A stretch of DNA of 34,180 nt from a virus. The notes under the pieces were generated by a model. The model was not told where the DNA came from. It worked only from the letters and a program-made list of their open reading frames with translations, and did not search any database. Made by a program: the position numbers and the translations under genes. Where the stretch lies: the IMG/VR virus record IMGVR_UViG_3300030380_004710, positions 1 through 34,180 of that record, one strand, 5' to 3'. Of the stretch, positions 3,902-5,179 are shown in pieces (within the stretch, counting starts at the first letter, position 1; the number at the start of each line of letters is the position of its first letter).

Positions 3902-4086
3902 AAGACCCAATAGAAAATATGGTTTTTAAAATCTTAGATGATTTTAAAGATGGGACTTATGATGCTTTAATATATGGCATTAAAAGTGAAACTAATAAAA
4001 CTTATGCCTACAAACAAGGTTATGACTTTGGTTTAGTTTTATATAACGATCAGATAAGTGAGGAAAAAGATGCTCAAACATCTTGA
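3898..4086 (+). CDS. Small hypothetical protein, 62 aa
   Basis: A 62-residue protein with no recognised family. It opens MKDPIENMVFKILDDFKDGTY and contains YAYKQGYDFGLVLYN. The ATG overlaps the previous stop (ATGA), and its last 17 bases overlap the methyltransferase start, so the three genes are likely co-translated. The Tyr/Phe/Gly-rich second half could be a small helical hairpin that binds a partner. It has no membrane segment. The only support is the operon context. Confidence 0.65.
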   Translation: MKDPIENMVFKILDDFKDGTYDALIYGIKSETNKTYAYKQGYDFGLVLYNDQISEEKDAQTS

Positions 4087-5179
4087 TTTATGTAGTGGTA
4101 TTGGTGGCTTTGCCGTAGGTTTTTCTATGGCAGAGTTATCAGAGCCTATCGCTTTTTGCGACACAGACAAGTTTTGTCAGAAAGTTCTTGCTAAAAACTT
4201 TCCAGGTATTCCAATTTATGATGATGTAAAGGAGATCGCAGATGACCCAAGAAGATTTATTTCAGAACGACCAGATATCCTCACGGCAGGATATCCGTGT
4301 CAACCCTTCTCAACAAGTGGCAAAAGGGGTGGATCGCAAGACCCTCGCCACATCTTTCCGTACTTGCATAAACTTATTGAACAAATCAGACCCACTTATT
4401 GTGTTTTCGAAAACGTATATGGACACCTCTCATTGGGACTTGACGAGGTACTGTTTGCAATGGAAAGCCTCAACTACCACACGAGGACATTTGTACTTCC
4501 GTCTAGTGCAATCGGAGCAAGACATAAACGAGAAAGATTATGGATCATCTGTAGAAACTTGGGCGACCCCCACAACTATGGATTCCCTACCACCGAGAAG
4601 TGCAGAGGCAACGAAGAAGATGCAAGAGGGACACAGAAAAGGTCGCAAGAGACCGAGCAATCTGAGGGAGCAAGTCGATCCGAAGACAATGGAAATGTAT
4701 CCAACACCGACAACAAAAGGTTTCGGTCATGCCTCGGAGGGTCAAACAATGATGTTCAGAAGGAAAGTGGAGAATGGAGAACTGACAGAAGCAGAAGCTC
4801 AAGCCATGATGAACGGAGTAACTTTGAGACCACCGAGAATGGAAGAATGGAATTATCCAACACCGACATCAAGTCTAAAGAAGCACAGTTACAACGGCAA
4901 CAAGGACTTTTGGGAGAACCGAGTGGAGAAGGGGAGACAGATGGACTTGGGAATGAAAATGTACCAAACGGAAGGAGACGGAAGGTTGAACTGCGATTGG
5001 ACGGAGTGGTTGATGGGGTATCCTATTGGTTGGACGAACCTAGAGGAGTTCCAAGAATAGTTGTCGATCAGAAAGATCGTGCCAATAGGTTGAAAGCATT
5101 GGGTAATGCTATCGTACCACAAAATGCAAAGTTAATTGGATTAGCAATAAAGAAGGAGATACAAGATGGAATTAAATGA
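4070..5179 (+). CDS. dcm: C5-cytosine DNA methyltransferase
   Basis: A 369-residue cytosine-5 DNA methyltransferase. It transfers a methyl group from S-adenosylmethionine to cytosine in a specific site, probably shielding phage DNA from host restriction. Visible motifs: I DLCSGIGGFAVGF (6-18); IV GYPCQPFSTSGKRGG with catalytic Cys77; VI FENV (113-116); VIII GARHKRERLWI (149-159); X RLKALGNAIVPQ near the C terminus. A GTG at 4058 is in frame, but GAGG 6 nt before the ATG at 4070 and the family start MLKHLDLCSG decide the start. Residues about 165-320, where the target-recognition part lies, are low-complexity and hydrophilic because a second gene is encoded in the +1 frame across most of this gene. 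It overlaps the next gene by 14 bases. The target sequence is unknown. Confidence 0.95.
   Translation: MLKHLDLCSGIGGFAVGFSMAELSEPIAFCDTDKFCQKVLAKNFPGIPIYDDVKEIADDPRRFISERPDILTAGYPCQPFSTSGKRGGSQDPRHIFPYLHKLIEQIRPTYCVFENVYGHLSLGLDEVLFAMESLNYHTRTFVLPSSAIGARHKRERLWIICRNLGDPHNYGFPTTEKCRGNEEDARGTQKRSQETEQSEGASRSEDNGNVSNTDNKRFRSCLGGSNNDVQKESGEWRTDRSRSSSHDERSNFETTENGRMELSNTDIKSKEAQLQRQQGLLGEPSGEGETDGLGNENVPNGRRRKVELRLDGVVDGVSYWLDEPRGVPRIVVDQKDRANRLKALGNAIVPQNAKLIGLAIKKEIQDGIK
4242..5060 (+). CDS. Nested Dcm-associated protein (PTPT/WLMGYPIGWT family)
   Basis: A 272-residue frame wholly inside the methyltransferase gene, in the +1 frame. AAAGGAG (4228-4234) lies 7 nt before its ATG, which is as good as any site here. 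The protein is not a random shadow. It has the features of a phage family usually found near dcm genes: SHWDLTRYCLQWKASTTTRGHLYFRLV (63-89), WATPTTMDSLPPRSAEA (107-123), GRKRPSNLREQV (134-145), YPTPTT (153-158), a second YPTPTS, and the closing WTEWLMGYPIGWTNLEE (253-269). The function is unknown, but dependence on the methyltransferase is likely. Where this frame reads PTPT, the methyltransferase frame reads SNTD, so both proteins constrain the same bases. Local base composition is less AT-rich than its surroundings. Homology is recalled, not searched. Confidence 0.85.
   Translation: MTQEDLFQNDQISSRQDIRVNPSQQVAKGVDRKTLATSFRTCINLLNKSDPLIVFSKTYMDTSHWDLTRYCLQWKASTTTRGHLYFRLVQSEQDINEKDYGSSVETWATPTTMDSLPPRSAEATKKMQEGHRKGRKRPSNLREQVDPKTMEMYPTPTTKGFGHASEGQTMMFRRKVENGELTEAEAQAMMNGVTLRPPRMEEWNYPTPTSSLKKHSYNGNKDFWENRVEKGRQMDLGMKMYQTEGDGRLNCDWTEWLMGYPIGWTNLEEFQE

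Follow-up and report, generated by a model that had tools for sequence, protein, structure and literature searches.

A 34,180-base record of a marine phage (IMGVR_UViG_3300030380_004710), whose full length is the window studied here, carries a dcm-type C5-cytosine methyltransferase gene with a second gene nested entirely inside it in the +1 frame. The products, called alpha and beta below, very probably are the two subunits of a heterodimeric C5-cytosine DNA methyltransferase encoded by a single stretch of DNA, a reading for which we infer translation, assembly, the recognition role of beta and the purpose of the enzyme. Frame 0 would yield alpha, consisting of an AdoMet-binding catalytic core (motifs I-VIII), an unstructured tether and a motif X that folds back onto the core. 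Translation of the +1 frame would begin at a separate ribosome site, a short way upstream of alpha motif IV, and would give beta, made up of an N-terminal domain that probably docks on alpha, target-recognition modules that number from one to six (three in this phage), and motif IX. The two chains would then assemble into one complete C5-methyltransferase, whose most likely task in the phage is to protect phage DNA from host restriction by methylating it. As long as the region of the modules stays open in frame 0, alpha accepts nearly any sequence there, and the modules could therefore be swapped without harm to alpha. The features of the locus are collected in Table 1.

Table 1. Features of the overlapping alpha and beta genes, with positions in the window.
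Feature	Positions	Strand	Basis or remark
Alpha chain, dcm-type C5-cytosine methyltransferase	4070..5179	+	369 aa from ATG; PF00145 E 9.8e-37
Alpha catalytic core, motifs I-VIII	4070..4564	+	pLDDT >90 for most of residues 1-165
Alpha GYPCQPFS	4289-4312	+	
Alpha ENV	4409-4417	+	
Alpha ARHKRERLW	4517-4543	+	
Alpha inter-motif linker, the frame-0 reading of the beta modules	4574..5044	+	Low complexity, kept stop-free
Alpha motif X helices RANRLKALGNAIVPQ	5078..5173	+	Helices 337-345 and 350-368
Nested-gene ribosome binding site AAAGGAG	4228..4234	+	7 nt to ATG
Beta chain, nested gene in the +1 frame	4242..5060	+	272 aa, ATG start; PHROG_1008 E 3.6e-19
Dual-coding stretch, alpha motifs V-VIII overlapped by the beta N-terminal domain (VDRKTLATSFRT...CLQWKASTTTRGHLYFRLV)	4338..4546	+	
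Beta module 1 (WATPTTMDSLPPRS...)	4560..4697	+	Module cluster common to 96 loci
Beta module 2 (YPTPTTKGFGHASEG...)	4698..4853	+	Module clustering
Beta module 3 (YPTPTSSLKKHSYNG...)	4854..4985	+	Module clustering
Putative motif IX in beta (LNCDWTEWLMGYPIGWT)	4986..5036	+	PDB profile match and IX-X order in L099/L108

The rest of the window is occupied by tailed-phage genes, including those for a terminase small subunit, primase, helicase, DNA polymerase, tape measure and virion structural protein. Besides its ATG, dcm has an alternative in-frame GTG start at 4058. The initial annotation described the nested gene as a 272-codon +1 frame inside dcm that is preceded by an AAAGGAG site at a spacing of 7 nt, and the coordinates and the site are all present; an RNA structure check found the site free of RNA folding. 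The motifs that were attributed to the nested product could also be located, namely CLQWKAS, WATPTTMDSLPPRS, WLMGYPIGWT and two copies of YPTPT (YPTPTTKG and YPTPTSSL). In the dcm frame, the codons of these two copies are read as VSNTDNK and LSNTDIK, which bears out the proposal that the SNTD repeats of dcm are the other-frame reading of PTPT codons. Upstream of dcm, a 135-aa ORF at 3494-3901 matches PHROG_33624 (unknown function) with an E of 4.7e-21.

Selection was evaluated in both frames by using a set of close relatives in which 57 distinct dcm genes served for counts of diversity, stops and start signals, and pairs among 21 representatives served for approximate dN/dS values with codon bootstraps. 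Among the 57 genes, diversity at dcm codon positions 1, 2 and 3 is.19,.10 and.38 in the 5' non-overlapping part,.34,.11 and.075 over 4547-4960, and.24,.14 and.44 in the 3' non-overlapping part. The protein-coding signature passes from frame 0 to the +1 frame and back to frame 0 along dcm, and the third-position diversity of 0.075 in the overlap versus 0.38-0.44 in the two ends is the synonymous-site suppression that had been put forward as a check on the nested gene. When substitutions over 4547-4960 are counted by their effect in each frame, dN/dS is 0.043 and 0.030 for the nested frame and 1.6 and 1.1 for the dcm frame. The pattern is reversed in the two ends that belong to dcm alone, with constraint on the dcm frame (NN/SN about 0.03-0.09) and none on the nested reading. 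Both frames are constrained in the dual-coding stretch that covers motifs V-VIII, where nested NN/NS is 0.18 (0.04-0.54). Protein constraint is slight across the first 32 nested codons, and over 4961-5059 constraint is apparent in both frames with wide intervals. From motif VIII up to the region of motif IX, protein-level conservation exists in the nested frame only, and the dcm frame is simply kept open. The suggestion that two conserved proteins share about 800 bases consequently had to be given up, as the dcm reading from motif VIII to motif IX lacks amino-acid constraint and is predicted to be disordered.

The start signals of the nested gene and the openness of both frames are also maintained. 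The AAGGAG sequence at 4229-4234, although located inside dcm codons, is invariant in 57/57 genes, and a start codon for the nested gene is kept in every one of them (43 ATG, 14 GTG). None of these relatives carries a stop in the nested frame, versus about 11 expected per sequence if dcm is synonymously recoded, and none carries a dcm-frame stop over 4548-5056, versus 8.1 expected in each if the nested protein is synonymously recoded. The dcm frame of 148 distant loci contains 18 stops versus 533 expected, with 16 of the 18 confined to two loci that have a split alpha (L099 and L108), and the third frame, which serves as a control, contains 717 stops versus 678 expected. That frame 0 remains stop-free despite its freedom of amino acids implies that translation continues along it as far as motif X. 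For the beta N-terminus, 85 diverse loci were each scored with a profile built from other loci. The real sequence exceeds all 30 alpha-synonymous shuffles in 85/85 cases, with a median of 127 bits versus 49 for shuffled synonymous dcm codons, and contains no stops where 224 are expected. These analyses confirm that the nested ORF is real and under selection.

The alpha chain exhibits the hallmarks of a C5-methyltransferase up to motif VIII, including PCQ, ENV and a Rossmann-type core. As the initial annotation had proposed, motifs I-VIII and motif X are intact in the dcm frame; PF00145 is matched by residues 3-250, phmmer aligns the core with M.HhaI 12-184, and the match to PHROG_363 extends to residue 362. 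However, neither a recognition domain nor motif IX is evident in the alpha sequence. The AlphaFold2 model is confident for residues 1-165 and 337-369, with pLDDT values of 81-97 by block from residue 341 through the motif X region, whereas residues 169-325 have pLDDT values mostly below 50 and no secondary structure. Comparison of this model with M.HhaI by VIA-align gives a Z of 22.7 over 212 residues with both ends matched; the C-terminal motif X helices are in place, and the small domain of M.HhaI is absent. With no amino-acid constraint and with predicted disorder, the stretch from motif VIII to motif IX can hardly read DNA sequence, and because a motif IX-like sequence resides in the +1 frame, alpha alone appears by its sequence to be an incomplete enzyme.

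The missing half is most likely the nested protein itself, which would provide the recognition domain and motif IX. A link between the nested protein and target recognition was part of the initial annotation and is retained, but the nested protein had been cast as a partner that co-evolves with the recognition domain of dcm, whereas it most likely is that domain. Residues 10-266 of beta align with positions 36-280 of the 329 in the PHROG_1008 profile ('DNA methyltransferase'). The putative motif IX is preceded by repeats that open with W/Y-x-T-P ('WPTP' modules), which number from one to six per nested protein and three in the present case. Loci L088 and L093 share a module that is 91% identical, whereas their alpha cores are just 43% identical. 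Similarly, five clusters were found in which modules are at least 65% identical while the alpha chains are at most 50% identical, in differing positions and neighbourhoods. Exchangeable target-recognition units would look like this, and we infer that the modules read DNA.

A profile of the nested C-terminus yielded three matches with E <10 when searched against the PDB, two of which are 4onj and 4onq (plant DNA methyltransferase). This alignment, which is weak (E about 0.7), falls at LEPDEVEMLLGFPKNHT and is followed by RTDRYKSLGNS, corresponding to motif IX and then motif X; M.HhaI carries LTPRECARVMGYPDSY at the motif IX position. Together with the in-frame IX-X order in the two split-alpha loci, the weak database match suggests that the beta C-terminus is a putative C5-methyltransferase motif IX. 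Searches of the PDB with the beta sequence directly or with the IX-X piece of L108 gave no match, nor did a search of Pfam with beta. An AlphaFold2 model of beta alone, computed with 128 relatives in the alignment, was poor (pLDDT 60.5, pTM 0.26), and the fold of beta as a recognition domain is therefore putative. Structural matches of the beta model in BFVD were set aside because of its low confidence.

The two exceptional loci, found in Brevibacillus borstelensis (L099, 2238-3522) and in a Bacillota MAG (L108, 2808-4107), unite the beta region with motif X. In both, the dcm ORF stops just past motif VIII, and the nested-frame ORF continues in frame through LNPDWVExLMGFPxGWTD to motif X (RLKACGNAVVP / RVKCLGNAVVP), such that the recognition region, motif IX and motif X follow one another in the canonical order on a single chain. 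The dcm frame of this stretch has 11 stops in L099 and 5 in L108, which are too many for a sequencing slip. These loci appear to be natural conversions of the layout to an order like that of M.AquI.

Other explanations for the nested frame can be weighed against these observations. It might be an overprinted accessory gene, encoding for example a regulator, an inhibitor or a nuclease partner, with the alpha frame holding an unusual recognition domain of its own. Phages have known overprinted accessory genes, beta matches no Pfam model, and for M.EcoHK31I the recognition domain has been predicted to lie in alpha (PMC3404938). However, from motif VIII to motif IX the alpha frame lacks constraint and is predicted to be disordered, the motif IX-like sequence sits in beta, the beta region and motif X form one chain in L099/L108, and beta is kept in 80/80 relatives of alpha, all of which makes an accessory gene unlikely. 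Programmed frameshifting that fuses alpha motifs I-VIII to the +1 modules and motif IX in one chain would fit the change in the frame of constraint just after motif VIII, because a shift at this point gives the canonical order. We nevertheless rejected this reading as very improbable, since frame 0 is open throughout, which is needless for a shifted product, the ribosome site and start of beta are invariant, and a second shift would be required for motif X. The N-terminal part of beta, which lies upstream of such a shift, is also under selection.

Least credible, with next to no probability, is that the nested ORF is an untranslated by-product of dcm coding or composition. Conserved alpha motifs do explain part of the N-terminal conservation, as the median of 49 bits for shuffled sequences attests, but the real sequences lie above every shuffle, nested dN/dS is 0.03-0.04 where dcm is free, and the nested frame is devoid of stops in all 57 sequences; this reading was rejected because the selection tests contradict it. 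The two-subunit reading also has points that count against it, namely the poor model of beta alone, the E of about 0.7 for motif IX, the lack of a Pfam match for beta, the constraint on both frames in 4961-5059, and the accounts of M.EcoHK31I that place its recognition domain in the large subunit.

Homology searches indicate that many phages and prophages have the split two-frame arrangement. A search of IMG/VR with the nested protein recovered 80 relatives that are 68-97% identical, with both frames open at +1 in 80/80, and the nested protein is often the more conserved of the two, as in L055, where it stands at 78% and dcm at 62%. More distant loci, of which 80 were drawn from bacterial genomes and 80 from viruses and which reach down to about 24-30% identity, have the +1 nested family in or overlapping dcm in 158/160 cases, the exceptions being L099 and L108. 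A sample recruited with the dcm protein alone, in which a +1 beta is present in 80/80, was also evaluated; the recruited samples have some contigs in common. The initial annotation had related the nested product to phage proteins near dcm genes. Members do exist in other phages, but they lie in or over dcm at +1, rather than near it, in all but two of the loci examined. Isolated phages with this layout include P. larvae, Lacticaseibacillus, Xanthomonas and Rhodobacter phages as well as N15, epsilon15, K1H and PMG1.

Several variations were encountered among these loci. Another alpha build, which starts YYNE..., is accompanied by the same kind of +1 beta in L248 and L254-L259 (K1H, epsilon15, N15, ESSI2_ev129, PhiXhv-18, EBPR podovirus 2 and RcPacific). 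Beta in this group ends LNPxHSRWLMGxPxxW, or LNPALSLWLMG in ESSI2_ev129, and the selection tests covered loci outside the group. Five apparently identical copies of the locus (L134-L138) reside on one Roseovarius MAG chromosome and three (L143-L145) in Lihuaxuella thermophila, as would be seen for multi-copy prophages. In L223 (2120-2350) and L225 (3685-3915), a second, non-overlapping cassette of module plus motif IX follows the end of alpha, and the adjoining alpha frame has stops. This second copy may be a leftover or spare recognition cassette.

To our knowledge, M.EcoHK31I and M.AquI, with the specificities YGGCCR and CYCGRG, are the known natural two-chain C5-methyltransferases. Lee et al. 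reportedly found in 1995 that the small chain of M.EcoHK31I is encoded by an alternative frame within the large-chain gene, an arrangement like that of the present genes, although beta has 272 aa and three modules versus 176 aa for that small chain. Tandem recognition modules of ~40 residues between motifs VIII and IX are characteristic of the multispecific C5-methyltransferases of Bacillus phages (SPR, phi3T type). The modules described here are likewise arranged in tandem between these motifs, but those of the Bacillus phages are in frame with the catalytic motifs on a single chain, whereas these are in the other frame.

The large chain of the naturally two-chain M.EcoHK31I carries motifs I-VIII and X and is where its recognition domain has been placed, and its small chain carries motif IX (PMC3404938). 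Alpha similarly has motifs I-VIII and X, with a motif IX-like sequence in the second chain, but the dN/dS values (alpha 1.1-1.6, beta 0.03-0.04) and the predicted disorder of alpha assign the recognition region to the nested chain. Because the pair is built as M.EcoHK31I is, it would be expected to work in the same way, the likeness being one of described build. M.EcoHK31I and M.EaeI were looked for in plasmids and were not identified. In M.AquI, motifs I-VIII are on the catalytic chain, and the second chain has the recognition sequence and motif IX (PMC3404938). This division appears to be shared by the present pair. Motif X, however, belongs to the second chain in M.AquI but to alpha in the present pair, in which the nested frame already ends at 5060, short of motif X. 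The M.AquI-like order is seen in L099/L108, and both layouts thus occur within one family.

Nested genes that are homologous or similarly built, and located at +1 inside a C5-methyltransferase gene, have already been annotated in K1H/K1ind, fKuEco01 ('Mte8-like protein') and Shelly ('g55 internal gene'), in records that offer no mechanism. In the majority of related records, a single frame of the two is annotated. Public records are inconsistent in this respect, with some giving alpha only, others beta only (PMG1, PhiXhv-2) and few giving both, and PHROGs labels both families 'DNA methyltransferase'. In the literature searched for C5-methyltransferases with overlapping or nested frames, no account of the general case or of a mechanism was found.

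On balance, we lean towards the view that this is a phage and prophage family in which catalysis is encoded in one frame and a swappable recognition array with motif IX in the other, and in which an enzyme with several modules may have several methylation targets. The accepted placement of the recognition domain of M.EcoHK31I would be wrong if that enzyme is related to this family. Many phage and prophage 'DNA cytosine methyltransferase' genes appear to be annotated as one protein while encoding two, and Pfam is without a model for the second chain. A recoded (codon-optimised) clone of the annotated ORF would destroy beta, and an active enzyme could therefore look dead. The family also offers a large natural example of gene overlap, with a switch of the constrained frame that can be followed along the sequence, and how phages change methylation specificity becomes a directly testable question.
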